This document shows, piece after piece, positions 2,205-16,847 of a stretch of DNA of 64,000 nucleotides; within the stretch, counting starts at the first letter, position 1, and every line of letters starts with the position of its first letter. A model generated the notes under the pieces. That model saw nothing but the letters and a program-made list of their open reading frames with translations, searched no databases and was not told the origin of the DNA. Source of the DNA: Eubacteriales bacterium (lineage in GTDB: Bacteria > Bacillota > Clostridia > Lachnospirales > Lachnospiraceae); the NCBI GenBank assembly GCA_030536755.1, contig JAUNPJ010000003.1, forward strand, positions 25,949 through 89,948, read 5' to 3'. Made by a program: the position numbers and the translations under genes.

Positions 2205-2927
2205 ATGGATGTAAAAATTTTGATGTCCGGAGATCAGGCTGTTTCCGTTCAGATGGGAGATGAGATCAGCCTGGAAGTAAATCGAAAAGTCCTGATGCTG
2301 CAGGAAGAACTGAAAAAGCATCCTGTAGAGGGAATTCGGGAGATGGTCCCTACATATGCGTCACTGATGATTCATTATCGTCCGGAAATCATAAAGCTGG
2401 ACAAGCTGATTGATGAAATTTATCAGCGCATCGACAATATGAAGGACATTGCGGGTTCGAAAAAAATTGTTCGTGAAGTACCGATTCTTTATGGAGGTGA
2501 AACAGGTCCTGATCTGGAGCTGTGTGCACAGTTGGAAAACACGACTGTGGAGGAAATCATACGAAAACATTCTGCACATGACTATTATGTGTATATGCTC
2601 GGATTTGCTCCGGGACATCCTTATTCTGCAAGATTTGAAGAGCCGTTTTCGTTTAAGAGAAGAGATACGGCACGTGTGAAAATACCGGCAGGATCGGTTG
2701 TGGTACAGCTCAACCTTTCTGATCTGATCCCGTTTGAGCAGCCATGTGGCTGGAACATTATTGGTTCTACACCACTGACAATCTGTGATTATAAAAAAGA
2801 AGATCCGTTCCTGGTACATGCAGGAGAGTGGATTCGATATATTCCGGTAAGCAAAAAAGAATATGAGCAGATTAAACGCGCGGACGAAGCGGGCACCTAT
2901 CAGGTGAAGGTTCGTGTGGAAGAGTAG
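2205..2927 (+). CDS. pxpB: 5-oxoprolinase subunit PxpB (KipI/AHS1 family)
   Basis: This 240-residue protein is one subunit of the ATP-dependent 5-oxoprolinase PxpABC, which hydrolyses pyroglutamate to glutamate. The AHS1/KipI signature GFAPGHPYSA lies near residues 130-140, followed by KRRDTARVKIPAGSV and the GWNIIGSTP segment typical of the family. The start follows CCGGAGGT. pxpC begins 42 bp downstream and pxpA follows, so all three subunits are present in B-C-A order. Formerly such genes were called KipI (kinase inhibitor) or allophanate hydrolase-like; the adjacent pxpA and pxpC favour oxoprolinase. Confidence 0.9.
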   Translation: MDVKILMSGDQAVSVQMGDEISLEVNRKVLMLQEELKKHPVEGIREMVPTYASLMIHYRPEIIKLDKLIDEIYQRIDNMKDIAGSKKIVREVPILYGGETGPDLELCAQLENTTVEEIIRKHSAHDYYVYMLGFAPGHPYSARFEEPFSFKRRDTARVKIPAGSVVVQLNLSDLIPFEQPCGWNIIGSTPLTICDYKKEDPFLVHAGEWIRYIPVSKKEYEQIKRADEAGTYQVKVRVEE

Positions 2928-2969
2928 ACATAACGACACATTGATTCAGATAAAGCATGGAGGTCAGAT

Positions 2970-3920
2970 ATGGGAATTCTGGTAAGAGATTCCGGTCCGC
3001 TTACAACAATACAGGACGAGGGAAGATTTGGATATCAGCAGTATGGCGTGACTCCATCGGGACCGATGGACGCCAGAGCTTTTCACATTGCCAACATTCT
3101 TGTGGGAAATCCACAGGGAGAGGGAGCGATGGAGATTACTTTTAAAGGACCTGAACTTGAATTTGATCAGGATATTGTGATTGCAGTCACAGGCGGTGAT
3201 ATGCAGCCAACCGTCAACGGCAAAAAAATTCCGATGTACACAGCGGTACAGATGCACGCCGGGGATGTACTGAAGTTTGGATTTGCATGTGCGGGTGGAT
3301 GTCGTGGATATATTGCCTTCGCCGGTGGACTGGACATTCCTTTGGTTATGGGATCGAAGTCAACACTGGCATCAAAAAAATTAGGGGGATATGAAGGCAG
3401 AGCACTGCAAAAAGGAGATAAAATCGGATTTTCATCACCAAAGAGTACTCTGGAGAGAATGGAAAAAAGAAAGGTTCCAACTCCGGTATATCCGACGAAG
3501 GAAGTGACGCTTCGAGTCGTTCTCGGACCGCAGGAGGATGCTTTTTCGGAAGAAGAGCAGAGAAAGTTTTTCTGGTACAGTTCCAGGGTGACGAATGAAT
3601 TTGACCGTCAGGGATGCCGACTGGAACGTGAAGTTCCGGTAAAACATTTGAAAGACGGCAATATCATCAGTGATGGAATTGCGTTTGGTTCCATTCAGGT
3701 GCCTACGACAGGACAGCCATTTATCATGATGGCGGACCGACAGACGGTAGGCGGTTATACAAAAATTGGAACGGTCATTACCGTAGATCTTCCCAAAATT
3801 GCGCAGGCAAAGCCGGGAATGAAGATTCGTTTTGTGCAGGTCAGCATGGAGCTGGCGCATTTGTTATACATCAGGGAACTGGAAGAATTAAAGCAGCTGG
3901 ATGAAGCCCTGAATCATTAA
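2970..3920 (+). CDS. pxpC: 5-oxoprolinase subunit PxpC (biotin-dependent carboxyltransferase-like, AHS2)
   Basis: This 316-residue protein is the AHS2/KipA-family subunit of 5-oxoprolinase. It opens with the characteristic GPLTTIQDEGR, followed by GVTPSGPMD and the NPQGEGAMEIT segment; the latter half carries the TGQPFIMMADRQTVGGYTKIG type motif. The ATG follows GGAGGTCAGAT. It sits between pxpB and pxpA (pxpA starts 154 bp later after its own AGGAGGAG site). No biotin carboxylase or carrier gene lies nearby, which argues against a carboxylase role. Confidence 0.9.
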   Translation: MGILVRDSGPLTTIQDEGRFGYQQYGVTPSGPMDARAFHIANILVGNPQGEGAMEITFKGPELEFDQDIVIAVTGGDMQPTVNGKKIPMYTAVQMHAGDVLKFGFACAGGCRGYIAFAGGLDIPLVMGSKSTLASKKLGGYEGRALQKGDKIGFSSPKSTLERMEKRKVPTPVYPTKEVTLRVVLGPQEDAFSEEEQRKFFWYSSRVTNEFDRQGCRLEREVPVKHLKDGNIISDGIAFGSIQVPTTGQPFIMMADRQTVGGYTKIGTVITVDLPKIAQAKPGMKIRFVQVSMELAHLLYIRELEELKQLDEALNH

Positions 3921-4074
3921 TTCTGGTTACATCTGTATATGTTTCGGACTTTTGCGGACGCGCAGGAGGACTTTATACAGATGCAATATACAACGGTACC
4001 GGTCAGTGTACAGTCCGTACACGAGGAAATTATGAAAAAATTTATCGATCAACGGTGACACAAGGAGGAGTAAT

Positions 4075-4833
4075 ATGTATGCAGTAGATTTGAACAGCGA
4101 CATTGGCGAAAGCTTTGGCGCATATAAGCTTGGAGATGATGAAGAAATCTTAAAATATGTTACCGCAGCAAATGTGGCATGTGGCTGGCATGCAGGTGAT
4201 CCGATGGTAATGGAGCGCGTTGTCAAAATGGCAGCTGAGAGAGGCGTTGTTGTGGGTGCACATCCAAGTTATCCGGACCTTATGGGATTTGGCAGAAGAA
4301 AAATGTATCTGTCCTTTGACGAAGCCAAAAATTATGTGAAGTATCAGATTGGAGCGCTTTCTGCGTTTACCACAAGTTATGGAATCAAGATTCATCATGT
4401 TGCACCACATGGAGCGATGGGCAACATGTGCCAGAATGACAGACAGCTTGCAAGAGCAATCTGTGAAGCATGTTATGAAATTGATCCGGAAATTATCATG
4501 TATTATTGTGCAGGTGCTGTTTTGGGAGAAGAAGCAGAAAAAATCGGTCTTCGCACTGCCTGTGAAATTTTTGCAGACCGCGCATATGAGGATGATCTCT
4601 CATTGAGAGGAAGAAAACTGGAAGGTTCTATGATTACGGATGAAGACGAGGCAATCAAACGCTGCATTCGCATGATCAAAGAAGGCAAGGTTACCGGATA
4701 CAGCGGCAAAGAACTGGATATTCAAGGTGATACTCTTTGTGTACATGGAGATGGACCGAAGGCAATTGCTTTTGTCAAGAAAATCACTGAGGCGTTTAAA
4801 CAGGAAGGTATCGAGATAAGAGCATTTCGATAA
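4075..4833 (+). CDS. pxpA: 5-oxoprolinase subunit PxpA (LamB/YcsF family)
   Basis: This 252-residue protein is the LamB/YcsF subunit of 5-oxoprolinase. The hallmark DLNSDIGESFG lies near the N-terminus, followed by ANVACGWHAGDP and GAHPSYPD, the conserved His/Asp-containing segments of this TIM-barrel-like family. Length matches the family (about 250). AGGAGGAGTAAT precedes the ATG. It closes the pxpBCA set and is followed 54 bp later by a glutamate/dicarboxylate symporter, so pyroglutamate opening and glutamate transport are probably co-expressed. Confidence 0.93.
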   Translation: MYAVDLNSDIGESFGAYKLGDDEEILKYVTAANVACGWHAGDPMVMERVVKMAAERGVVVGAHPSYPDLMGFGRRKMYLSFDEAKNYVKYQIGALSAFTTSYGIKIHHVAPHGAMGNMCQNDRQLARAICEACYEIDPEIIMYYCAGAVLGEEAEKIGLRTACEIFADRAYEDDLSLRGRKLEGSMITDEDEAIKRCIRMIKEGKVTGYSGKELDIQGDTLCVHGDGPKAIAFVKKITEAFKQEGIEIRAFR

Positions 4834-4887
4834 TATTTTCATAAATGGATGTTTCAGTTAAAAATGAATCAGATGGGAGAGAGAAAG

Positions 4888-6237
4888 ATGGGAAAAAACA
4901 AGAAGAAAGAAAGACCGATCGCGCAGAAAATGATTGCTGCACTGGTCGGCGGTATCGTTGTAGGTCTGATTTTCATGATGATTCGTCAGAATCTGTTAAA
5001 TAACGGTGGAGACGCTACATGGAAAACAATCAATGATCTTCTGTTCCAGGATATTACTGTAGAAGCCGGTGTGAAGGCTGTTGGTATTTTTTACATAATC
5101 GGTCAGTTATTTATGAAAGGTCTTCAGGCAGCGATCGTTCCGCTGGTACTGGTATCTTTGAGTCTGGCACTTTGCAGTATTTCCGATTCCACAAAGCTTG
5201 GAAAAATTGCAGCAAAAACATTACTCGGATTTTTCGCATTCTACGCAGTTGGTGCGTTGATTGCATGTACGGTAGCTTATATCGTGAAATCAGCAGGACT
5301 GTTTAACGTAACGCTGGTTGCGGATGGTCTTGGCGAAGCCAGCACAATTGATGCATTCAACCCACTGGCAGTAATCGTAAATGCAGTTCCGAATAACATT
5401 ACTTCTGCATTCAGTACAAACAACAGTATTCTTGCCGTTGTATTTACAGCAGTGGTAATCGGTATCTGTATGAATGCACTCGGAGAGAAAGCAGCTCCGC
5501 TGAAAAAAGTATTTGAAAGCGCAAATGAAATCATTCAGATGTATCTGAACTTCCTGATCAACAAGGTTGGCCCGATTGCAGTGTTCTGTCTGGTAACAAG
5601 AACCTTCGCAATCTACGGTGCTGAATACCTGAAACCGGCAGCTGCCTACGTGATTTCTGCTATGGCTACACTGCTGATTACCTGCTGTGTGCTGTATCCG
5701 ATCGGAATTTTTGTTACAACTGGTCTGAATCCGGTGAAATTCCTTAAGAAAATGGCTAAGGTTGGTGTATTTGGATTCTCTGTAAACTCTTCTGCAGCAA
5801 CACTTCCGCTGAACACAAAGACCTGTCTGGAAGAATTGGGATGCTCTCAGGAAATTACAAGCTTTGTACTTCCTACCGGTATGACAATTAACATGAATGG
5901 TACAACTATGATGCATATGTTTGCGGTAACCTTTATTGCTACCGCAGCAGGTATGAACGTTACACCTGCAAACCTGATTGTAATGGCGCTTCTGTCTATC
6001 TGTGCGGCTGCGGGTACACCGGCTATCCCGATCGCAGGAACAACCATGATCTTTACGGTTTTATCCGGTATGGGCTGGACAACAGATGTTTGTCTTCTTG
6101 GATATGCACTGGTTGTTGCAATCAACAGACCGGTTGAGATGTCTCTGCTTCCGCTGAATGTTATCGGTGATGCAGCAGTAAACGTTATTGTAAATGCATC
6201 GGAAGGTCAGCTGGATAAAAACGTTTACAATTCTTAA
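4888..6237 (+). CDS. Dicarboxylate/amino acid:cation symporter (SLC1/DAACS family)
   Basis: This 449-residue integral membrane protein of the glutamate/aspartate/serine symporter family takes up substrate with Na+ or H+. The serine-rich re-entrant loop SVNSSAATLPLN (around residue 300) and the NMNGTTMMHM segment, equivalent to the family's NMDGT sodium/substrate motif, are visible, with about eight hydrophobic segments and hairpins. The ATG at 4888 is preferred over one at 4849 because GGGAGAG lies upstream of it and the N-terminus then starts with the lysine-rich MGKNKKKERP. It follows pxpA closely, which suggests glutamate or a related acid as substrate. Confidence 0.88.
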   Translation: MGKNKKKERPIAQKMIAALVGGIVVGLIFMMIRQNLLNNGGDATWKTINDLLFQDITVEAGVKAVGIFYIIGQLFMKGLQAAIVPLVLVSLSLALCSISDSTKLGKIAAKTLLGFFAFYAVGALIACTVAYIVKSAGLFNVTLVADGLGEASTIDAFNPLAVIVNAVPNNITSAFSTNNSILAVVFTAVVIGICMNALGEKAAPLKKVFESANEIIQMYLNFLINKVGPIAVFCLVTRTFAIYGAEYLKPAAAYVISAMATLLITCCVLYPIGIFVTTGLNPVKFLKKMAKVGVFGFSVNSSAATLPLNTKTCLEELGCSQEITSFVLPTGMTINMNGTTMMHMFAVTFIATAAGMNVTPANLIVMALLSICAAAGTPAIPIAGTTMIFTVLSGMGWTTDVCLLGYALVVAINRPVEMSLLPLNVIGDAAVNVIVNASEGQLDKNVYNS

Positions 6238-6300
6238 AATAAAATCGTTACAATCTGTTTTTCGGCTATCTTCCGAAAAGACAGTGTGATAACCCCACAG

Positions 6301-6334
6301 AAGAAGGAATGCCGGAAATGGTATTCCTTCTTTT
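6301..6334 (+). terminator. Terminator after the pxp/symporter operon
   Basis: A 13-bp stem, AAGAAGGAATGCC paired with GGTATTCCTTCTT around GGAAAT, runs into TTTT. It ends the symporter transcript and shows that the next gene starts downstream of it, at 6364, not at an earlier in-frame ATG at 6286. Confidence 0.75.
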
Positions 6335-6363
6335 GCTATAGAAGCGGAAAGGAAAGAAACATT

Positions 6364-9300
6364 ATGCTGCAATATGAAATACCAAAAAGTGGAGTAAATT
6401 TACGAGAGGTACTTTGTCTGTGCCAGCCATATATGGATCGAGTCTGTGAGCATACACCGAAGCAGGGATGGATGGATTATACATTTCAATGGCTTCTGGC
6501 ACAGTATTTTCCTGAAAATTATACAGTGGAAAAAATTCCGGGGGCAGAGCAGGCAGTTGGCTATTTTACGGAAATGCTGAATGAATTGTTTAGGAGGGAG
6601 GCACTGGAGCTGCCGTTTGATCCCTGCCGTCATTTTGCTCTTCTGAAAAAAGAAGAAGAACCGTACTGCAGGATTCTGAGTGAATACCAGCGTTTTCAGG
6701 AATGCTTCGATCAGGGCCTGATTTATGTATTTATGCGTCTTGCACAGGAATGTACTCCTTATGAAACTCTGGGGCATATTGCCGGAGTACATCATGTATC
6801 CATGTTTATGGCAAGACAGCTGGTACAAAAAGGTGTTCCCGTAGATTTGGGCCTGATGTCCGGAGCTGCTTTGATGCATGATATTGGAAAATACGGATGC
6901 CGGCCGGAAGAAGGAAGGCGGGTTCCGTATCTGCATTACTATTATACCTTTCAGTATTGCCGGAATCATCATCTGGAAGCAATCGGAGATATCGCCTCCA
7001 ATCATTCCGTTTGGGATCTGGAACTGGAAAATCTGTCGGCAGAGAGTCTGCTTCTGATTTATGCAGATTTTCGGGTGAAAAGTGTTTATGACAAAAATGG
7101 AAAAGAGAGGATTCGTTTCTGGAGTCTGGACGAAGCTTATGAAGTGATTCTGAGTAAACTTGACAACGTGGATGAAGCCAAAAAGAAACGATATGCCAGA
7201 GTATATGCGAAACTGAAGGATTTTGAGGACTATATGATTTCACTGGGCTGCGCAGTTGATCTGGTATCAAAAGCAGAAGAACCAGCAGAAGAAGCCTATG
7301 ATTCTCTTAGGAATGAAGAGGAGATTATATGCCGTTTTAAAACACTTGCCATCCGTTCGAATCTTACCATTATGAGTACCACATCCAGAGAAGAGCAGTT
7401 CATCAGTTTTCTGGAAAACATACGTTCGGAGAGAGACTGGAGACATGTGCGTGCGTATCTGACAGCAATAGAAGAATATTCTGCATATCTGCCGCAGAAT
7501 CAGAAAGATGTGATTCTGGAATTTCTGTTCGATATGATGTCTCATAAAGACGGAGATATCCGGCGGCAGGCGGCCAGAATCGCCGGTGTTTTAATTGCCG
7601 GTTATGAGATTCGTTTTACCAAGGAAATTCCGGACGGCTATCAGGCGCCCGGGGTTGGCAGAAGTCTGGAAACGGTTTTTCAAAATTTTCTGCAAAGAAT
7701 GTTGTGCCCGCAGGTACATGAGGCAGAGAGGGAACGTCGTTTTGCCGGATTTGCCATGAAACGAGTCCTGCACACATTGCTGGAAAAACTGGATGGGGAA
7801 AAACAGAGAGTGATTCTGGAAATTTACATCCAGTGCTGCCACAGAAAGCACGATTCGCTCACATTATTTTTCCTGATGGATTGCAGTGCGGAAATTTCTT
7901 ATGGACAGTGCAGCCAGGCACAGATTGACAGGCTGGAAGAATTTTCTTCTTCTCTGGTTGCGGGAGATGCAGGAGAAGAAAGTCAGGTGGCTGCTCTTCG
8001 TTTCATTCTTCTATGGATGCGGCAGGGCTGGAAACCACACAAAAATATATCAGATCTGATTACGGAGAGCATTCCGGATATCAAACAGAAACCTTACAGC
8101 GTACAGTTTCTGGCGGCCAGAATCCGGGAATTTTATGGTATCCCCAGTGAGCATGGTATGATCTACTACGATATGACAAATCTGTATCTGGAAAATCAGC
8201 GTTCGGAGGTTCCGTGGATTTATAAGTATATGAATATGGAGATTTTAAGAAAACGACAGGGTGCGGAAAACAGTATCGAGCAGTTGTATCAGTATGCTTC
8301 TCATCTTCTTCATATGCTGCAGTTTTCCGGACAGATCGTGAACCGTCTGCAGGCAGGGGAAAATCTGCTGGCCATCGTCCCATGTTTATCGGAAACACAG
8401 TGTCATGAGATTGTTTTGGAATTGATTCGGGCGCTGGAAATCGAGGAATATGCAGTTTCAAAGTATATTCCACCCTGTCTTGGCAGAATGTTTGCTCTGC
8501 TTCGTCGGGAGGAACGGGAATATATTCTTTTGCAGCTTCGGCGGCTGTGCTGCACAACGCATAACCGGACCGTGATCGCGGCGCTGGAAACCGCCGGGAA
8601 AATTCTTCACAGTTGTCCGGAAAAACTTACGGTACAGGAGTGCGCTCAGGCAGAAGGCATTTTATGTATTGGTATGGCGGACTATCGCGATGAAATTGCG
8701 CAGGAGGCATTTTATATCACAGGTCATGAGCTGTTTGGAGACGACACGCTTACACTGGCAGAAAAACAGCGCTATTTTTCCGGGCTTGCAAGAAAAATAC
8801 TGACTCTTCTGAACTGGGAAAAGCTTGGACTGTATGTATATTTCAATGGAGCGGCACTCAATCGCATTTATCGTTTTATTAATGATTTTATTGTGGAAAA
8901 CAACGCACATCCATTTACAGAAACAAAACTTCCGGTTGCGTTTTTTCCGGGAACGTTTGACCCATTCTCACTTGGCCATAAGCAGATTGTAGAAGAAATT
9001 CGAAAAATGGGATTTCGTGTATACCTGGCTGTGGATGAGTTTTCCTGGTCGAAAAAACCGCAGCCTTTTGAAGTGAGAAGGAAGATTCTTTCCATGTCAA
9101 CGGCAGACATGGAAGAAGTCTATCTGTTCCCGGAGGAAATACCGGTAAATATAGCAAATCCGAAGGATATGAGAAATCTGTCAAACGTATTTGCAGGGAA
9201 AGAAGTCCACCTGGTTGTGGGGAGTGATGTGGTGAAACATGCATCTGCCTATAAACAGATTCCGCAGGAAGGATCGGTTCACCAGTTCCCGCATCTTATT

Positions 9301-10974
9301 TTTTCCAGAAATGTTGGAAACGATACGCAGGAAATGGAAAAAGAAATGGCAGTCTGTAGGGAACGGATACTTGCGGATAAACAGTATATGAAGCTTCCGC
9401 CTCTGCTGGAGCATGTCAGTTCTACACGGATCAGGGAAAATATCAATGCAGGAAAAGACATTCTGGGGCTGGTGGATGATGGTGTGCAGAATTACATTTA
9501 TCAATTAGGTTTATATACCATGGAAGCGGCTTACAAAAAGATTGCAAGGTTTACACCAGTTGATGTGAAAATGGAGCAATCGGAACATGGTTCGCAGATC
9601 ATGAATCTGTTGAATGGGGAAAATGTTTTTTCCAGTGTGGAGTTTCATGACGTGGATGCCTCTGATCTGATGAGGGAGTGCGGCAGTATTGAAAAGGCAG
9701 AAGTGCTTAGAACGCTGATCTCAGGAAGAACGGCGATGATCACCAGAATACAGGGAGAAGTCAGTGTATTTGATGACGGAAGACTGACCGTTTTGAATGA
9801 AGCATTGGAATATTTTCAGGAAAACAGCTATTCGTTTGCGCTTTGTGTGGACACGGGTGAGAATGAGGAGGTTTTGAGACTTCATGGATTTCTCCCTGTT
9901 CCTGGAATGGAGTGTATGTTTTTGCTGGATCTTCGGTATCCGCTTGTGATTTTTTATGATACACCGTCTTCCATCAAAGAATCGATGGCTGACAGCGAGG
10001 AAGTACGCCTTGTTCTTCGAAACAGCCATATTCGTCTTCTGGAGGCGCTGACGAGTTTGTATCCGGGAAGACTGATTTTGTGTTTTGCCTCAGAAATTAT
10101 GAACTATCGGCTGATACAGCTGATTACCAGAGAAAATCATGTGCCGATGCAGCAGAACCTTCCGGGGAAAAACGGGGAGAAAATGTGTGTACCTTTTGGC
10201 AAGATTCTCAAGGGTGTAAAAATTCCAAATACGGTTACGAAGGGATTGGATACAGAGAAAGTATATGAGAAAGATCTGTCCTCCTTTACGATTTCCAGCT
10301 TCCCGGGTTATGCATCGCTTCCGATTCAGATCAGAACCGTACATTCTTTCCAAAGACCGGTACTTCTGGTAGATGACCTGTATCACAGCGGTCATCGAAT
10401 GCAGGAAATTTCGGGGCATTTTCAGCGGGAAGAAATAGAGCCAGAACTTCTTGTCGGAGTAATATCAGGAAAAGGACAGGATCTGGCGCGTGTAAACGGA
10501 CAGAAGGTCAAAGCTGTCTATCGTGTACCGAATCTGTCCACTTGTCTGATTGAGTCAGATCTCTATCCATTTCTCGGAGGAGATGGCGTAAAAACGGAGC
10601 AAAACAGAACGGAAATGCTTATGGCGATTCCCTCGATTAATACAATTTTGCCTTATGGGATACCGGAATTTTTGAAAAAGGAATCTCTTGGAGCTTTTTA
10701 TGAATTATCCAGAGTATGCATAGAAAATGCCAGGGATATTTATCAGGTGCTGGAAAAGGAGTACAGGCGGCAGTATGGCAGACAGCTGACGCTGGACCGC
10801 ATCGGCGAGGTTGCAGCAGAACCCAGATACCCGGATGGTGTGGGGCTGAACTGGGAAAAACTGCAGCAGGCACCGTCTCAGATTCTGGAAGAAGAACTGG
10901 AAAAACTTCACAGACTTTCTTTTTTGGCGAAGGAAGAGATTACTGGAAGTATGCAGAGCAGAAAGGAGCGTTGA
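6364..10974 (+). CDS. Giant HD-domain / helical-repeat / NadD-like nucleotidyltransferase / PRTase-like fusion
   Basis: This 1536-residue protein is of unknown function. In order: an HD phosphohydrolase-like domain (H143/H144, then H172-D173 in MHDIGK, about residues 130-300); a long helical region, about 350-850, with HEAT-like segments (for example DIRRQAARIAGVL); a cytidylyltransferase-fold domain with GTFDPFSLGH at 863-872 and SSTRIR at 1019-1024, the two nucleotide-binding motifs of nicotinate-nucleotide adenylyltransferase; an unassigned stretch that may be GNAT-like; and a phosphoribosyltransferase-type loop, LLVDDLYHSG, near 1334-1343. The start uses AAAGGAAAG upstream of ATG 6364. 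Only one base separates its stop from the next ATG. I infer a role touching NAD or related nucleotides; no known pathway fits. Confidence 0.75.
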   Translation: MLQYEIPKSGVNLREVLCLCQPYMDRVCEHTPKQGWMDYTFQWLLAQYFPENYTVEKIPGAEQAVGYFTEMLNELFRREALELPFDPCRHFALLKKEEEPYCRILSEYQRFQECFDQGLIYVFMRLAQECTPYETLGHIAGVHHVSMFMARQLVQKGVPVDLGLMSGAALMHDIGKYGCRPEEGRRVPYLHYYYTFQYCRNHHLEAIGDIASNHSVWDLELENLSAESLLLIYADFRVKSVYDKNGKERIRFWSLDEAYEVILSKLDNVDEAKKKRYARVYAKLKDFEDYMISLGCAVDLVSKAEEPAEEAYDSLRNEEEIICRFKTLAIRSNLTIMSTTSREEQFISFLENIRSERDWRHVRAYLTAIEEYSAYLPQNQKDVILEFLFDMMSHKDGDIRRQAARIAGVLIAGYEIRFTKEIPDGYQAPGVGRSLETVFQNFLQRMLCPQVHEAERERRFAGFAMKRVLHTLLEKLDGEKQRVILEIYIQCCHRKHDSLTLFFLMDCSAEISYGQCSQAQIDRLEEFSSSLVAGDAGEESQVAALRFILLWMRQGWKPHKNISDLITESIPDIKQKPYSVQFLAARIREFYGIPSEHGMIYYDMTNLYLENQRSEVPWIYKYMNMEILRKRQGAENSIEQLYQYASHLLHMLQFSGQIVNRLQAGENLLAIVPCLSETQCHEIVLELIRALEIEEYAVSKYIPPCLGRMFALLRREEREYILLQLRRLCCTTHNRTVIAALETAGKILHSCPEKLTVQECAQAEGILCIGMADYRDEIAQEAFYITGHELFGDDTLTLAEKQRYFSGLARKILTLLNWEKLGLYVYFNGAALNRIYRFINDFIVENNAHPFTETKLPVAFFPGTFDPFSLGHKQIVEEIRKMGFRVYLAVDEFSWSKKPQPFEVRRKILSMSTADMEEVYLFPEEIPVNIANPKDMRNLSNVFAGKEVHLVVGSDVVKHASAYKQIPQEGSVHQFPHLIFSRNVGNDTQEMEKEMAVCRERILADKQYMKLPPLLEHVSSTRIRENINAGKDILGLVDDGVQNYIYQLGLYTMEAAYKKIARFTPVDVKMEQSEHGSQIMNLLNGENVFSSVEFHDVDASDLMRECGSIEKAEVLRTLISGRTAMITRIQGEVSVFDDGRLTVLNEALEYFQENSYSFALCVDTGENEEVLRLHGFLPVPGMECMFLLDLRYPLVIFYDTPSSIKESMADSEEVRLVLRNSHIRLLEALTSLYPGRLILCFASEIMNYRLIQLITRENHVPMQQNLPGKNGEKMCVPFGKILKGVKIPNTVTKGLDTEKVYEKDLSSFTISSFPGYASLPIQIRTVHSFQRPVLLVDDLYHSGHRMQEISGHFQREEIEPELLVGVISGKGQDLARVNGQKVKAVYRVPNLSTCLIESDLYPFLGGDGVKTEQNRTEMLMAIPSINTILPYGIPEFLKKESLGAFYELSRVCIENARDIYQVLEKEYRRQYGRQLTLDRIGEVAAEPRYPDGVGLNWEKLQQAPSQILEEELEKLHRLSFLAKEEITGSMQSRKER

Positions 10975-10975
10975 C

Positions 10976-11986
10976 ATGAAAACAATTATGGAACTGGGAC
11001 TTTCCCAGGACAACAAAAAGGATGATACAAAAGAAAAAACAAAGCCGGTATGGCTGCAGAAGGACAGAACAGATCGAAAACGAATCCATCTGGCAGGACT
11101 TGGCGATGTCGGCAGAAATGTGGCAATTGGTCTTACGCTTCTAGGGGAAGATGCAGTTGAAAGTATTGGGCTGTATGATCTGAATGAATCACAGTGCAAA
11201 AGAATGGAAACAGAACTGTCGCAGATTGCAGCGCCGCCAGGAGGAAAGCGTATTCCGCAGGTATCGTCTGTTTCATGGGAAGACATTTTTGCGTGCGATG
11301 TCTTTTTGTTCTGCGCGACAAAGAGTGTTCCGGCACTTGGAAGTGACGTAAAAGATGTGCGCATGGCACAGTACGAGGCAAATAGTGAAATCGTTGCGCT
11401 TTATGCCAGGGAAGCTGCCCGTACAGGCTATCAGGGACTGTTTGTTGTTGTTTCCGATCCTGTGGATCTGCTGTGTATGGAAGCGCTCAGAGCATCCCGT
11501 GGAGAAGAAAGAGCAAGAGCACTGACAACAGACCAGATTCGAGGATGCGGTCTTGGTGTGATGAATGCACGTGCCGCATATTATGCGAGAAAATATCCGG
11601 AATTTTCTTTATACCTGGAAGAGGGACGTGCCTTTGGTCCGCATGGGCAGAATCTTGTGATTGCAAACAGTATTGTCCCGGAACATTATGATGATTTGTG
11701 TTCCAGAAAATTAACGGAATTGACTGTCAAAGCAAATATGGAAGTGCGTGCGCTGGGATTTAAGCCGTTTCTGGCACCTGCCATGTCCTCTGCGGTACTG
11801 ACCATTTTGGCATTGCTTCGCGGGGAATGGAATTACAGTGCAGCCTATCTGAACGGACTTTATTTTGGGGCATTAAACCGTCAGACATCGGAAGGCGTGG
11901 AATGGGAATCCTGTCCGATTCCGGATCTGTTGTTTGCAAGACTGGAGGAAGCGTTTGACAGTCTGAGGGAGATTTTATGGAAATGA
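10976..11986 (+). CDS. Lactate/malate dehydrogenase-like NAD-binding protein
   Basis: This 336-residue protein has the lactate/malate dehydrogenase fold. The dinucleotide-binding loop GLGDVG (41-46) follows a lysine-rich N-terminal extension; VVSDPVDLL corresponds to the NPVD strand, and GPHGQN with H223 corresponds to the catalytic His loop (GEHGDS in classical LDH). The surroundings of the family's substrate-binding Arg are divergent, so the substrate is probably not plain lactate or malate. It starts one base after the giant HD/NadD-like gene and overlaps the following flavoprotein gene by 10 bp, so the three are almost certainly translated as one unit. Confidence 0.75.
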   Translation: MKTIMELGLSQDNKKDDTKEKTKPVWLQKDRTDRKRIHLAGLGDVGRNVAIGLTLLGEDAVESIGLYDLNESQCKRMETELSQIAAPPGGKRIPQVSSVSWEDIFACDVFLFCATKSVPALGSDVKDVRMAQYEANSEIVALYAREAARTGYQGLFVVVSDPVDLLCMEALRASRGEERARALTTDQIRGCGLGVMNARAAYYARKYPEFSLYLEEGRAFGPHGQNLVIANSIVPEHYDDLCSRKLTELTVKANMEVRALGFKPFLAPAMSSAVLTILALLRGEWNYSAAYLNGLYFGALNRQTSEGVEWESCPIPDLLFARLEEAFDSLREILWK

Positions 11987-13065
11987 TTTTAATCTGGCCG
12001 AGGCAGGGGGAAGAATCCCGTCTGGAACAGGTGCTGCTGTTTGCTTTGGAAAACATCACCGTGAAGCAGATCATTCGGGAGCCAGCGCAGCTAAAGAAAG
12101 CAGTGCATGAAAAGAAACTTCAAAAGGAAAGACTTTTGTTTGCAATGTCTCTGGGAGAGGCGGGCATCAACCTCAAATTATATGAAATGCTGGCGATTCT
12201 TCGAACAAACGGAGAATGTCTGCAGGACAGTGTGGCAGGAATTCTGGTGGATGGAAACGGAGAGGCCTATACAAAGTTCATTGCCCGGGAAGTGGTGAGA
12301 ACTGCGAATGAAGCCGGGTGCTGGTTTGTCGGACGGCCGCTGGCAGAAGGAACCGGAAGTCTTCAGAATTATAAGATTATCGCCGGAAATGAGAACTGCA
12401 CTTTTTACGAAGCGTATTTGCGCTCGGCAAAAGAAACAGTTGAGCGTGTCGCTGCATTTCAGAAACCGGTATACATAAATCCAAAGCTTTTGTGTGTGCA
12501 CGCCTGCAATCCTTCCACGTCCAACACGTTACAGCTGTGGAGAGAAGTCAAAGCAAAACTTCCGGCTGAAATTCAGGTACAGGAAATCTCACTCAGGAAT
12601 GGCACCGTTTCAGACTGTGCAGGCTGTTCGTATGACATGTGTATGTATTTCAGCCAGAATTCCAGCTGTTTTTACGGAGGACCTATTGTGGAGGAGGTCT
12701 ACCCTGCATTGGAGGAATGCAATGGTCTGGTGCTTCTCTGTCCAAACTACAACGATGCTCTGGGGGCGAATTTGACAGCATTTATCAATCGGCTGACGGC
12801 TCTGTTTCGCAAGAAGCCATTTGCGGATAAATGTCTGTTTTCCCTGATCGTTTCCGGGTACAGCGGCGGAGATATTCTGGAGCAGCAGCTGATTGGAAGT
12901 CTGAATATGAATAAATCTTTTATACTGCCGGGAAATTTTGCGATGACAGAGACGGCCAATCAGCCGGGAAGCATTCTGGAAATCCGTGATATTCACAAAA
13001 AAACGTCAGAATTTGCGACTCGTATTGCTTCCTGTATGACAGATTTTCAGAGAAATAATCATTAA
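11977..13065 (+). CDS. NADPH-dependent FMN reductase-like / iron-sulfur-flavoprotein-like protein
   Basis: This 362-residue protein has two parts. The N-terminal 165 residues are unassigned. The C-terminal part is a flavodoxin-fold FMN reductase domain: HACNPSTSNT resembles the phosphate-binding loop, and LLCPNYNDALGANLTAFINR matches the 'SPxYxxxxxxxLKxxxDR' segment. A cysteine cluster, C214-x2-C217-x4-C222-x8-C231, occupies the place where archaeal-type iron-sulfur flavoproteins carry their 4Fe-4S ligands, but the spacing differs from the classical motif. The start overlaps the preceding gene by 10 bp; ATG 11983 is an alternative. Probably an electron-transfer or oxidoreductase partner of the two upstream proteins. 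Confidence 0.7.
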   Translation: MEMILIWPRQGEESRLEQVLLFALENITVKQIIREPAQLKKAVHEKKLQKERLLFAMSLGEAGINLKLYEMLAILRTNGECLQDSVAGILVDGNGEAYTKFIAREVVRTANEAGCWFVGRPLAEGTGSLQNYKIIAGNENCTFYEAYLRSAKETVERVAAFQKPVYINPKLLCVHACNPSTSNTLQLWREVKAKLPAEIQVQEISLRNGTVSDCAGCSYDMCMYFSQNSSCFYGGPIVEEVYPALEECNGLVLLCPNYNDALGANLTAFINRLTALFRKKPFADKCLFSLIVSGYSGGDILEQQLIGSLNMNKSFILPGNFAMTETANQPGSILEIRDIHKKTSEFATRIASCMTDFQRNNH

Positions 13066-13187
13066 CATTGTAAATAATTTATATAGAATTAATTCATTTT
13101 ACTTTATGATTAGATATGCCTATAATGAGGATAGAAACAAGGAAAAGTTCATACATAAATAGATAAAAAATGAGAGGAGATAAAAAA

Positions 13188-14366
13188 ATGTTCAATACGG
13201 CTGAAAGAATGGAAGCACTTCCTTTTTCCGGAATTCGTGTGATGATGGAACGTGCAAACAAAATGCAGAAAGAGGGACGCGATATTATCCATATGGAAAT
13301 TGGTCGTCCGGACTTTGATACACCGGAAGTGATCAAAAAGGCTGCGAATGACAGCCTGGCGCAGGGACATGTTTTTTACACATCCAATTACGGAACACCG
13401 GAGCTTCGCGCTGCAATTGCAGAGAAACTGACAAAGGAAAATGGTGTGGAGTACAAACCGGAAGAAATTCTGGTTACGATTGGTGTCGGTGAAGGTACGT
13501 ATGCTTCTATGGCAGCATTCCTGAATCCTGGAGATGAAGTGCTTGTGCCAAACCCAGTATGGTTAAATTATATTCATGTTCCGAAATTCTTTGGTGTGGT
13601 TCCGGTAACGTATTCTCTGAAGGAAGAGAATGACTACCAGATCAACATGGAGGAGATTGAAAGCAAAATTACCGATAAGACAAAAATGATGGTCATCAAT
13701 ACACCTGGAAATCCAACCGGTACGGTACAGAGTCGTGAAACATTGGAGAAACTGGCTGAGATTGCAAAGAAACATGATCTGATCGTAGTGGCAGACGAGA
13801 TTTACGAGAAGCTGGTATACGGCGGTGCAAAACATGTCAGCATTGCTTCTCTTCCAGGAATGAAAGAGCGCACGATCACATTAAACGGCTTTTCCAAATG
13901 TTATTCCATGACAGGATGGAGACTTGGTTATTGTGCGGCTCCTGTAGAGATGATTCAGGGACTGGTTCGTGTACATCAGTACATCAATACCTGTGCTGCT
14001 TCTTTTGTACAGGATGCTGGTGTGACAGCACTTCGTGAGGCTGAGCCAGATGTACAGATGATGGTAAAAGAGTATGAGAAACGCAGAAATTATGCAGTAG
14101 AAGCACTCAACGCAATGGAAGGAATCAGCTGCAAGGTTCCGGAAGGCGCATTTTATATTTTCGTAAATGTAAAATCACTTGGAATGACATCTGCACAGGT
14201 TGCCGATTATCTGTTAGACGAGGCCGGTGTTGCCTGTGTTCCGGGTTCGGCATTTGGAACAGAGGGAGAAGGATATATCCGTCTTTCCTACGCATGCAGT
14301 TATGAACGTATTGTAGAAGCAATGAACCGTATGGCAAAAGCATTTGAAGAATTAAGAACAAAATAA
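13188..14366 (+). CDS. Pyridoxal phosphate-dependent aminotransferase (class I/II)
   Basis: This 392-residue fold-type I aminotransferase matches the aspartate/aromatic aminotransferase subgroup I-gamma. Visible are NTPGNPTG (cofactor-binding), VADEIYEKLVYGG, the Schiff-base lysine K237 in NGFSKCYSMTGWRLGY, and RLSYACS near the C-terminus with the carboxylate-binding Arg. ATG 13188 is chosen because AGGAG sits eight or so bases before it; an ATG at 13170 overlaps that site. It heads an operon with glutamate dehydrogenase and a D-2-hydroxyacid dehydrogenase, so it probably moves an amino group to 2-oxoglutarate and passes the resulting keto acid on. The preferred amino acid cannot be read. Confidence 0.9.
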   Translation: MFNTAERMEALPFSGIRVMMERANKMQKEGRDIIHMEIGRPDFDTPEVIKKAANDSLAQGHVFYTSNYGTPELRAAIAEKLTKENGVEYKPEEILVTIGVGEGTYASMAAFLNPGDEVLVPNPVWLNYIHVPKFFGVVPVTYSLKEENDYQINMEEIESKITDKTKMMVINTPGNPTGTVQSRETLEKLAEIAKKHDLIVVADEIYEKLVYGGAKHVSIASLPGMKERTITLNGFSKCYSMTGWRLGYCAAPVEMIQGLVRVHQYINTCAASFVQDAGVTALREAEPDVQMMVKEYEKRRNYAVEALNAMEGISCKVPEGAFYIFVNVKSLGMTSAQVADYLLDEAGVACVPGSAFGTEGEGYIRLSYACSYERIVEAMNRMAKAFEELRTK

Positions 14367-14395
14367 AAGCAAAATTGCTTTAGGAGGAAAAGAAA

Positions 14396-15745
14396 ATGAA
14401 TGCATATATCAACAGCGTGATTGAACGTGTAAAAAAGAAATATCCGGAACAGCCGGAATTCTGCCAGACCGTAGAAGAGGTTCTTTCTTCTCTCGAGCCG
14501 GTCGTGGAGAGACATCCGGAATACGAAAAGGTGGATTTGCTGAATCGTATGGTAGAGCCGGAGAGAATGTTTACATTTCGCGTTGTATGGCAGGATGATA
14601 ATGGAAATTGGCACACAAATACAGGATATCGCTGCCAGTTCAATGGCGCGATCGGACCATATAAAGGCGGACTCCGATTCCAGCCGAATGTAAATCCAAG
14701 CATTATGAAATTCCTTGGATTTGAGCAGACCTTTAAAAACAGCCTGACCGGTCTTCCGATTGGAGGCGGCAAGGGCGGTTCTGACTTTGATCCGACTGGA
14801 AAAAGTGATGATGAAATCCTTCGTTTCTGCCAGAGTTTTATGCAGGCATTATATCGCTACATCGGACCGGATGTAGATGTTCCGGCAGGTGATATGGGAT
14901 GCGGAGGAAGAGAAATCGGATACCTTTTTGGAGAATACAGAAGATTAAAAGGCGTTTTTGAAAACGGTGTTCTGACTGGTAAGGGATTTTCTTACGGCGG
15001 CAGCCTGATTCGGCCGGAGGCAACAGGTTATGGTTCTGTTTACTATCTGGAAAATGTGTTAAGAGATGACGGACAGGATATTAAAGGAAAAACAATTGCG
15101 TGTGCAGGTTTCGGTAATGTCACATGGGGAATCTGCAAAAAAGCAACAGAACTTGGCGCAAAGGTTGTAACGCTTTCCGGTCCGGATGGCTATGTATATG
15201 ATCCGGATGGAGTCAATACTCCGGAAAAGATTGCGTATCTGGTTACTATGAGAAATTCCGGAAGAAATAAAGTGCAGGATTATGCAGATAAATTTGGCGT
15301 AGAATTCTTCCCGGGAGAAAAACCATGGGGCGTAAAAGTGGATATTTGTATGCCGTCTGCGATGCAGAATGATGTACATATGGAGGATGCCAAAAAGATT
15401 GCAGCAAACCATGTCCGTTATTACATTGAAGTGGCAAATATGCCAACCACAAACGAGGCACTTCGTTTTCTGATGGATCAGGATGATATTATCGTTGCTC
15501 CTTCCAAGGCAGTGAATGCCGGCGGCGTAGCAACCTCTGCGCTGGAGATGAGCCAGAACAGTGAGAGACTGGTATGGACAGAGGAAGAAGTGGATGCGCA
15601 GCTTCGTAATATTATGAATACGATTTACAAAAATTCAGTAGATGCTGCAAAAAGAAACGGATTGGGTTATAATCTTGTTGCAGGCGCAAATATTGCAGGT
15701 TTTGAGCGTGTTGCAGATGCGATGATGCAGCAGGGAGTATTTTAA
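14396..15745 (+). CDS. gdhA: NADP-type glutamate dehydrogenase
   Basis: This 449-residue hexameric-type glutamate dehydrogenase interconverts glutamate and 2-oxoglutarate plus ammonium. The substrate-binding block YKGGLRFQPNVNPSIMKFLG, followed by GGGKGGSDFDP with the catalytic lysine environment, is intact, as is the dinucleotide-binding region CAGFGNVTWG and the C-terminal VNAGGVATSALEMSQN. The length (about 450) and GGGKGG context fit the NADP-dependent enterobacterial/clostridial class. AGGAGG precedes the ATG at ideal spacing. It lies 29 bp after the aminotransferase and 21 bp before the hydroxyacid dehydrogenase, so it recycles the glutamate formed in transamination. Confidence 0.95.
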   Translation: MNAYINSVIERVKKKYPEQPEFCQTVEEVLSSLEPVVERHPEYEKVDLLNRMVEPERMFTFRVVWQDDNGNWHTNTGYRCQFNGAIGPYKGGLRFQPNVNPSIMKFLGFEQTFKNSLTGLPIGGGKGGSDFDPTGKSDDEILRFCQSFMQALYRYIGPDVDVPAGDMGCGGREIGYLFGEYRRLKGVFENGVLTGKGFSYGGSLIRPEATGYGSVYYLENVLRDDGQDIKGKTIACAGFGNVTWGICKKATELGAKVVTLSGPDGYVYDPDGVNTPEKIAYLVTMRNSGRNKVQDYADKFGVEFFPGEKPWGVKVDICMPSAMQNDVHMEDAKKIAANHVRYYIEVANMPTTNEALRFLMDQDDIIVAPSKAVNAGGVATSALEMSQNSERLVWTEEEVDAQLRNIMNTIYKNSVDAAKRNGLGYNLVAGANIAGFERVADAMMQQGVF

Positions 15746-15766
15746 AGAAAGGAAGAGAAATAAAAA

Positions 15767-16732
15767 ATGAAGATTGTAGTACTTGATGGATACACCGAAA
15801 ACCCTGGAGATCTTTCCTGGGACGCACTTGCAGAACTTGGAGAACTGGTTGTATATGACCGCGTTTCTTATGCAGAAGATCCAATCATCCGTGAAAAGAT
15901 TGGAGATGCAGATGTTGTAATCACAAATAAAACACCGATTTCGAAAGAAACTCTGGATGCATGCCCGAATATCAAAGCAATCGCAGTTCTGGCTACCGGA
16001 TACAATGTGGTAGATTATGAGTATGCAAAAGAAAAAGGAATTCCGGTCATGAATGTACCAACTTATGGAACACAGATCGTTGGTCAGTATGCAGTCGGAC
16101 TTCTGATGGAAATCTGCTCTCATTACGGACATCATGATCAGACTGTAAAAGAAGGAAAATGGGAAAACAATGCAGACTGGTGTTACTGGGATTACCCAAT
16201 GATTGAGCTGTATGGAAAAACAGCAGGTATCATCGGTCTTGGAAGAATCGGACAGTCTACTGCAAGAATTCTGAACGCTATGGATATGAAGGTTCTTGCT
16301 TACGATGCATTTGAGTCTGAGGCAGGAAAAAAAGTAGCAGAATATGTAGACCTTGACACTCTGCTGGCACAGTCCGATGTGATTTTCCTGCATTGCCCTC
16401 TGTTCCCATCCACAGAGGGAATCATCAACAAAGATAACATCGCAAAAATGAAAGACGGTGTCATCCTGATCAACAACAGCCGTGGACAGCTTGTGGTAGA
16501 GCAGGATCTGGCAGATGCTTTGAACAGCGGAAAAGTATATGCAGCTGGTCTGGATGTTGTATCCACAGAGCCGATCAAAGGAGACAACCCGCTTCTTACC
16601 GCAAAGAACTGTCTGATCACTCCTCATATTTCCTGGGCAGCACAGGCAGCACGCCAGAGAATTATGGATATTACAGTAAATAATGTAAAATCCTTCGTAG
16701 AAGGTAACCCAACAAATGTGGTAAACAAATAA
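15767..16732 (+). CDS. D-2-hydroxyacid dehydrogenase (glycerate/hydroxypyruvate reductase-like), copy 1
   Basis: This 321-residue NAD(P)-dependent reductase belongs to the D-isomer 2-hydroxyacid dehydrogenase family. The dinucleotide loop GLGRIG lies near residue 155; the catalytic triad is visible as R239 (NNSRGQ), E268 (STEP) and H287 (PHISW). The ATGYNVVD segment and TYGTQIVGQYAVGLL match the glycerate dehydrogenase/hydroxypyruvate reductase subgroup. A paralogue about 87% identical by hand count lies at 49557-50522. It ends the aminotransferase-gdhA operon, so its substrate is probably the 2-keto acid produced there. A strong terminator follows. Confidence 0.92.
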   Translation: MKIVVLDGYTENPGDLSWDALAELGELVVYDRVSYAEDPIIREKIGDADVVITNKTPISKETLDACPNIKAIAVLATGYNVVDYEYAKEKGIPVMNVPTYGTQIVGQYAVGLLMEICSHYGHHDQTVKEGKWENNADWCYWDYPMIELYGKTAGIIGLGRIGQSTARILNAMDMKVLAYDAFESEAGKKVAEYVDLDTLLAQSDVIFLHCPLFPSTEGIINKDNIAKMKDGVILINNSRGQLVVEQDLADALNSGKVYAAGLDVVSTEPIKGDNPLLTAKNCLITPHISWAAQAARQRIMDITVNNVKSFVEGNPTNVVNK

Positions 16733-16756
16733 GACAGATTTATTGAAACAGAAAGA

Positions 16757-16796
16757 AAATTCCGGGATTTTGGTGAAGGAAATCCCGGAATTTTTT
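16757..16796 (+). terminator. Terminator of the aminotransferase/GDH/hydroxyacid dehydrogenase operon
   Basis: AAATTCCGGGATTT pairs with AAATCCCGGAATTT around a TGGTGAAGG loop and is followed by TTTTTT. It lies between the dehydrogenase stop and the real start of the next gene at 16848. Confidence 0.9.
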
Positions 16797-16847
16797 CGCA
16801 TCAAAATTTCTACAGGACAAATAAAAATCATATGGAAGAGGTGTAGT

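Follow-up and report, generated by a model that had tools for sequence, protein, structure and literature searches.

A conserved three-gene unit encoding a giant multidomain protein, an LDH-like protein and a flavoprotein, with a possible role in nucleotide-cofactor metabolism

The DNA considered here, referred to as the window, is a stretch of 64,000 nt from Eubacteriales bacterium (Lachnospiraceae; assembly GCA_030536755.1, contig JAUNPJ010000003.1, positions 25,949-89,948 of the forward strand). Three consecutive genes in it encode a very large multidomain protein (the giant), a protein resembling lactate and malate dehydrogenases (LDH and MDH; hereafter the LDH-like protein) and a flavoprotein. 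An initial annotation had grouped them as a dedicated system that makes, repairs or senses a nicotinamide-type cofactor. We found that the three genes are one dedicated conserved unit, and propose a function for it from sequence; the parts belong to known superfamilies, and what is new is the system as a whole. No description of this domain combination was found in the open-access library searched, in agreement with the initial annotation, which had known of no described system of this kind.

The three genes and their conservation

The locus comprises the following features:

6364-10974, + strand: giant protein, 1536 residues from the ATG at 6364, with full-length relatives
10976-11986, + strand: LDH/MDH-like Rossmann protein, 336 residues, 1-bp gap after the giant
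11977-13065, + strand: flavoprotein, 362 residues, 10-bp overlap with the LDH-like gene
6298-6335, + strand: terminator-like hairpin of 17 bp with a T-rich 3' side, between an upstream symporter gene and the trio

All three open frames, with their gaps of 1 and -10 bp, were as first annotated. An in-frame GTG at 6286 lies 5' of the giant's ATG, and an AAAGGAG sequence lies 5' of the LDH-like ATG. The terminator previously placed before the set corresponds to the hairpin at 6298-6335, which has a fold z-score of -5.1 and was not listed by a simple terminator scan. Every motif named earlier was located in the translations, namely H172-D173, GTFDPFSLGH, SSTRIR and VDDLYHSG in the giant, GPHGQN in the LDH-like protein and C214-x2-C217-x4-C222-x8-C231 in the flavoprotein; because their key residues are near-invariant across all full-length rows (65 for the giant, 62 for the LDH-like protein and 58 for the flavoprotein, near-copies included), these motifs are not chance occurrences.

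Co-occurrence was assessed in 246 genomes of the same order and 398 genomes of the phylum, with some genomes, G000 among them, in both samples. The full-length giant was detected in 13 of the 246 order genomes (G000 and 12 others, all 12 from one other family), and 70 further genomes had weak matches only, nearly all to its NadD region. Profiles of the LDH-like protein and the flavoprotein gave strong matches (E of 1.7e-140 or better and 8.5e-142 or better, respectively) in exactly the 13 giant carriers, and we regard the next-best matches, at 1.6e-12 and 2.2e-16, as ordinary members of the LDH and FMN_red families. Likewise, in the phylum sample, the LDH-like protein (E <1e-15), the N-terminal half of the giant (<1e-30) and the flavoprotein (<1e-20) were each found in the same eight of 398 genomes. 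A strong match to one member of the trio without the other two was found in none of the 246 order and 398 phylum genomes. Two genomes carry the giant and its partners on separate contigs (C14 and C9 in G244; C1 and C29 in G567) and still have all three, so the coupling does not need linkage.

Linkage is nonetheless the rule. Among 60 related loci collected, 52 extend 2.2 kb or more downstream past the giant, and in 50 of the 52 the giant, LDH-like protein and flavoprotein follow one another in that order on one strand, counting L060, whose flavoprotein was detected by tblastn only. The two exceptions are L031 (from G244) and L077 (Atribacteria), where the sequence from the LDH-like gene to the end of the contig gave no match to the flavoprotein; the same order is seen at six more loci from the phylum sample. 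The grouping first proposed was thus borne out both by co-occurrence without exception at strong scores and by the adjacency of the LDH-like and flavoprotein genes to homologues of the giant, and the non-linkage that would have spoken against it was not seen. To allow for near-duplicate loci (such as L036/L053, L047/L049/L050 and L063/L065/L067), 69 loci were grouped into 24 lineages. The trio's clusters occur in 21-23 of these lineages and the next gene clusters in only seven and five, and a conserved fourth partner was accordingly rejected. The cluster in seven lineages is inferred, from one linked protein scanned, to consist of ABC-transporter ATPases, and that in five contains an aminotransferase. 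Over 56 loci, pairwise distances of the three proteins correlate with one another at r 0.86-0.90, and none of 500 shuffles exceeded 0.145.

Many Clostridia have relatives of the trio, as does a single clade of Atribacterota. One branch of a quick tree of 47 giants divides Bacillota from Atribacterota, and the Atribacterota giants (L062, L064, L068, L069, L074, L076 and L077) group together next to Alkalithermobacter (support 96), within what is drawn as the clostridial portion. This suggests that the Atribacterota copies stem from one transfer, with the caveat of midpoint rooting and long branches. Named carriers include Anaerovorax odorimutans, Peptoclostridium litorale, Fervidicella metallireducens, two Alkalithermobacter, Anoxynatronum buryatiense and a Tindallia metagenome-assembled genome, several of which we take to be fermenters of amino acids. 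The trio is testable, being found in isolated anaerobes (Anaerovorax, Peptoclostridium, Alkalithermobacter, Fervidicella and Acetoanaerobium). The Acetoanaerobium noterae copy (L137, NZ_CP154629.1) lies on a 2.63-Mb record that is filed as a plasmid in the plasmid collection and, from its size, is probably a chromosome.

Domains of the three proteins

Domain assignments in all three proteins rest on sequence profiles, which point to the following putative regions:

6751-7083, + strand: HD domain of the giant (about residues 130-240; H138, H172-D173, H191, H214, D235)
7261-8868, + strand: alpha-helical HEAT-like middle of the giant (about residues 300-835)
8932-9522, + strand: NadD-type nucleotidyltransferase domain of the giant (residues 857-1053)
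9526-9963, + strand: poorly conserved GNAT-like segment between the giant's NadD and phosphoribosyltransferase (PRTase) parts (residues 1055-1200)
10141-10608, + strand: purine-PRTase-like domain of the giant (about residues 1260-1415, VDDLYHSGHR)
11977-12480, + strand: N-terminal domain of the flavoprotein (residues 1-165; invariant T99-K100, G114, G119, E124)
12616-12669, + strand: four-cysteine motif of the flavoprotein, C-x2-C-x4-C-x8-C (C214, C217, C222, C231; 58/58)

The seven alignments used (A1, A5 and A6 with 37 rows, A2 with 38, A3 with 33, A4 with 30 and A7 with 31) left out near-copies, truncated loci and 12 of the 60 related loci. At E up to 1, Pfam HD (best 1.5e-6) and Pfam HEAT (best 1.1e-5) each match 20 of the 38 members, recovering the HD motif and helical-repeat middle noted in the initial annotation. 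In the window copy, the HD match is below threshold (12.7 bits against a cut-off of 22), and HEAT gave no match when that copy was scanned alone. Six possible metal ligands (H138, H172, D173, H191, H214 and D235) are each present in 65/65 giants, and we infer that they may act as dimetal ligands, as we do which of the histidines would bind metal. The HD part of the DVU_1551 family (NCBIfam NF045665) finds a match in the corresponding region of 36 of 38 members. This family combines an NTP transferase with an HD domain, and the giant was compared with it for the HD part only; unlike members of that family, the window giant scores 22.4 bits against a cut-off of 315. The YqeK model TIGR00488 was not among the NCBIfam matches of this region. 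For YqeK, a review (PMC8177086) describes a dimetal ligand pattern of H...HD...D plus two more histidines, and this pattern is present in 65/65 giants.

In the NadD-type domain of the giant, Pfam CTP_transf_like matches 37/37 members (30.9 bits in the window copy), and hhalign against four ordinary NadD proteins aligned the domain over its whole length (99%, E 4e-19 for one target). G863, F865, D866, P867, H872, S1019, S1020 and R1024 are conserved in 65/65, so that both nucleotide motifs claimed earlier lie in a domain that appears complete in sequence. These are what we take to be the GxFDP, (H/T)xGH and SSTxIR motifs of the nucleotidyltransferase superfamily; in the second, the first position is S (57/65) or T (8/65) and the third is G (34/65) or S (31/65). 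The NadD model TIGR00482 gives 44.7 bits for the window copy and 36.5-60.7 bits for 19 relatives, against a cut-off of 112.45. The segment that follows is GNAT-like by a weak match in one of 37 members; the window copy has no Pfam or NCBIfam match there, and a PDB profile search of the segment gave nothing credible.

The PRTase-like assignment of the VDDLYHSG loop stood in part. PRTase profiles do match relatives: Pfam Pribosyltran in 19 of 37 members (best 0.00039), the NCBIfam model for adenine PRTase in 26 of 37 (best 9.3e-5) and hypoxanthine-guanine PRTase (HGPRT)-type models in up to 17. The best PDB profile match is a hypoxanthine PRTase (E 0.074), and alignment with the hypoxanthine PRTase of one locus, L130, gave 22% and E 0.00098. 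The window copy itself has no Pfam or NCBIfam match in this part, which was recognised through its relatives, and its loop is non-canonical. Like type I purine PRTases, the giant has an acidic Asp pair after a hydrophobic strand (kept in 64/65 and 62/65), followed by Gly; unlike them, it has His and Lys in the phosphate loop, gives weak matches and carries the domain at the C-terminal end of a very large fusion.

The window copy of the LDH-like protein scores 25.2 bits with Pfam Ldh_1_N (below the cut-off of 27) and 27-33 bits with LDH/MDH models against cut-offs of 283-339, and LDH structures were matched in PDB profile searches (best 7.5e-9). Like L-lactate and malate dehydrogenases, it keeps an N-terminal NAD-binding fold, with the Gly-rich loop residues G43 and G46 in 61/62 and the beta-2 Asp D68 in 58/62. 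R129, R199, H223 and M196 are found in 62/62, the first three of which we take, from alignments and LDH numbering, to be counterparts of LDH R109, R171 and H195. In contrast to these dehydrogenases, on the same alignments and numbering, Asn138 is replaced by Asp in 62/62 and Asp168 by Met, so the substrate arginines are kept while the catalytic His195-Asp168 pair is not intact, only the His remaining. Among LDH-like relatives, 36 of 63 have at least 380 residues (L059, L061, L062, L070 and L072 among the longer genes), with an N-terminal extension that is not in the window's or Blautia-type copies.

In the third protein, first annotated as having a flavodoxin fold, FMN_red matches 30/30 members (63.9 bits in the window copy). 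The FMN-loop Ser and Asn are kept in 57/58 and 58/58. The four-cysteine motif is a possible iron-sulphur (Fe-S) site, and presumably lies in the region usual for FMN_red iron-sulphur flavoproteins. The flavoprotein shares the FMN_red fold with these and differs from them in its cysteine spacing, in being an obligate partner of the giant and in its extra N-terminal domain, an addition to what had been annotated, for which a PDB profile search gave nothing credible and no relatives were detectable.

Relation to known systems and proposed function

Ordinary NadD and YqeK scored over curated cut-offs in 19/19 trio genomes tested (12 from the order, seven from the phylum), and in the window's genome they lie side by side on contig C22. 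As both are already present, the giant represents an extra system rather than housekeeping NAD synthesis, and the latter role was rejected for it. In several genomes (G113, G145, G216, G244 and other family-f17 genomes), the ordinary NadD and YqeK are apparently fused in one frame of about 414-424 codons. The nearest functional precedent for the giant is the YqeK domain fused to NadD, which is reported to proofread NAD synthesis (PMC9426524). Like the NadD-YqeK fusion or operon, the giant brings together HD and NadD-type nucleotidyltransferase domains and shares the GxFDP, (H/T/S)xGH and SSTxIR motifs and the six-ligand HD pattern. Unlike it, the giant has the reverse domain order, a HEAT-like middle, GNAT-like and PRTase-like parts and two obligate redox partners, falls far below the NadD cut-off and coexists with NadD and YqeK.

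The reactions, the substrate, complex formation, the Fe-S cluster and the physiological role considered below are those that we infer for a gene unit whose co-occurrence, homology, conserved residues and extra copy beside NadD and YqeK are observed. Tentatively, and with somewhat less than even confidence, we propose that the giant serves to make or remodel an adenylated dinucleotide and that the LDH-like protein and flavoprotein are its redox partners. The three genes would form one nucleotide-cofactor unit, and the giant would be a multi-enzyme protein on a HEAT-like scaffold, in which the NadD-type domain would most likely transfer AMP from ATP to a phosphorylated mononucleotide, the PRTase-like domain would make, bind or take apart that mononucleotide, and the HD domain, with its six invariant possible ligands, would cleave or edit the nucleotide. 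The LDH-like protein and the FMN flavoprotein, with its probable Fe-S site, would then use or restore the giant's product. Given that ordinary NadD and YqeK are present too, we favour a version in which a special or damaged dinucleotide of pyridine type is made or remodelled (for example, repaired) in anaerobic fermenters. The co-occurrence of the three proteins and the domain combination in one of them point to a metabolic function missed by current annotation. Should that function be the making or repair of a dinucleotide cofactor, redox-cofactor biology would gain a new step.

NAD-linked genes among the neighbours offer a lead towards a nucleotide-cofactor role, not proof of it. Glutamate dehydrogenase occurs near the trio in four of 24 lineages (one as a partial match at a locus end), against an expectation of 0.12-0.23. 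A malic enzyme gene lies directly upstream of the giant at L055, a member of the same cluster lies directly downstream of the flavoprotein at L056, and NAD(P)H-hydrate dehydratase is encoded four genes downstream of the giant at L084.

Several observations weigh against the making or remodelling of a dinucleotide. The enrichment of glutamate dehydrogenase was noticed first and then tested, and gene context beyond the trio is otherwise not conserved. No Rfam family was found in the window, and scans of six trio loci returned two S-adenosylmethionine (SAM) riboswitches and one T-box, none adjoining the trio, so no family lies beside it in any of these. A Rex-like operator with at most three mismatches was found in nine of 63 upstream regions (three of the nine being near-copies) compared with 10.8% of shuffles, and is thus hardly commoner than in shuffled sequence. 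Of the giant's domains, the NadD-type one is the sole one to pass a Pfam cut-off when the window copy is scanned by itself. The hhalign comparison of the HD domain with YqeK is weak (18%, E 0.0013, from 12 of 19 YqeK rows). In HD phosphatases, according to PMC8177086, a strictly conserved Arg stands ahead of the first His, at an unstated spacing. The giant has no such residue: among residues 105-137, the column richest in Arg is 125, with Arg in 41 of 65 sequences and Lys in a further 21. In the LDH-like protein, Asp168 is Met in 62/62. Further, the PRTase profile is weak and appears closer to purine (adenine/hypoxanthine) than to nicotinate PRTases. The canonical 13-residue motif for phosphoribosyl pyrophosphate (PRPP) has small residues in the phosphate loop. 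The giant's consensus, VDDLLHKGYR, instead has H1341 in 55/65 and K1342 in 53/65, so PRPP may not be its ligand. The initial annotation is supported as regards a dedicated unit, whereas its nicotinamide-type substrate is a hypothesis only, given the nearest PRTases, the altered PRPP loop, the lost Asp168 and the unconserved HD Arg.

One alternative is a new, non-canonical NAD-like cofactor that the giant builds (by its PRTase, adenylyl-transfer and HD editing functions), with the LDH-like protein as its dedicated dehydrogenase and the flavoprotein recycling it. The same co-occurrence and residue conservation would fit this, as would the extra NadD-type domain beside ordinary NadD in 19/19 genomes and the retained Gly-rich loop, beta-2 Asp, arginines and His of the LDH-like protein, but no further gene is conserved alongside the trio, the PRPP loop is altered and the compound is itself a prediction; we regard it as unlikely. 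More specifically, the trio could be the founding example of an undescribed cofactor system of anaerobic bacteria, in which the giant assembles (PRTase), adenylates (NadD) and edits (HD) such a dinucleotide, and the LDH-like enzyme and Fe-S flavoprotein use the product for electron transfer in amino-acid fermentation. This fuller version is doubtful, and if true would mean a private redox currency apart from NAD(H).

It is also conceivable, though improbable in our judgement, that the trio is a redox or nucleotide sensor complex, whose enzyme folds bind NAD(H), purine nucleotides or PRPP and which tunes enzymes of amino-acid fermentation such as glutamate dehydrogenase. Such a complex, which would be a new kind of redox control, could account for the HEAT-like scaffold, the alteration of LDH Asp168 and the PRPP loop in nearly all members, and the presence of glutamate dehydrogenase among the neighbours (4/24 lineages). 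Nevertheless, the HD and NadD key residues are kept in 65/65, beyond the needs of a pure sensor, and neither a DNA-binding or kinase domain above threshold nor a conserved target gene was found.

The combination of HD, nucleotidyltransferase and purine-PRTase-like domains could act not on a redox cofactor but on a signalling or damaged purine dinucleotide (Ap4A-like), or could modify an RNA or a protein by means of nucleotides. The nearest functional analogue, YqeK, is an Ap4A hydrolase according to PMC8177086. However, YqeK is already present in 19/19 trio genomes and the two obligate redox partners would be left unexplained, and we consider this quite unlikely. A mobile or anti-phage defence cassette, as might be suspected from the patchy distribution, the very large multidomain protein and the unconserved flanking genes, is very improbable: the giant, the LDH-like protein, the flavoprotein and a nearby PPDK_N protein gave no match to any PADLOC family at E up to 0.1, no phage record matched the giant's N-terminal 850 residues, the sole plasmid-collection match is the 2.6-Mb replicon of Acetoanaerobium noterae, and the tree keeps Bacillota and Atribacterota apart; defence or phage origin was accordingly rejected. 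A chance grouping of three unrelated, ordinary genes within a catabolic region, with ordinary-looking 5-oxoproline, glutamate and 2-hydroxyacid genes in the window flanks, has a negligible probability and is refuted by the co-occurrence without exception in both samples and the conserved gene order.

Neighbouring genes in the window

Upstream of the trio, positions 2205-6237 hold a dicarboxylate symporter gene and what we take, from sequence, to be 5-oxoprolinase-type genes, and downstream, positions 13170-16732 presumably encode an aminotransferase, a glutamate dehydrogenase and a 2-hydroxyacid dehydrogenase. The gene at 16743-19409 encodes a protein with a phosphoenolpyruvate (PEP)-synthase-type ATP-binding domain (PPDK_N, 157 bits) and an N-terminal part with no Pfam match above threshold; relatives of this protein occur at L044 (80%) and L078 (32%).

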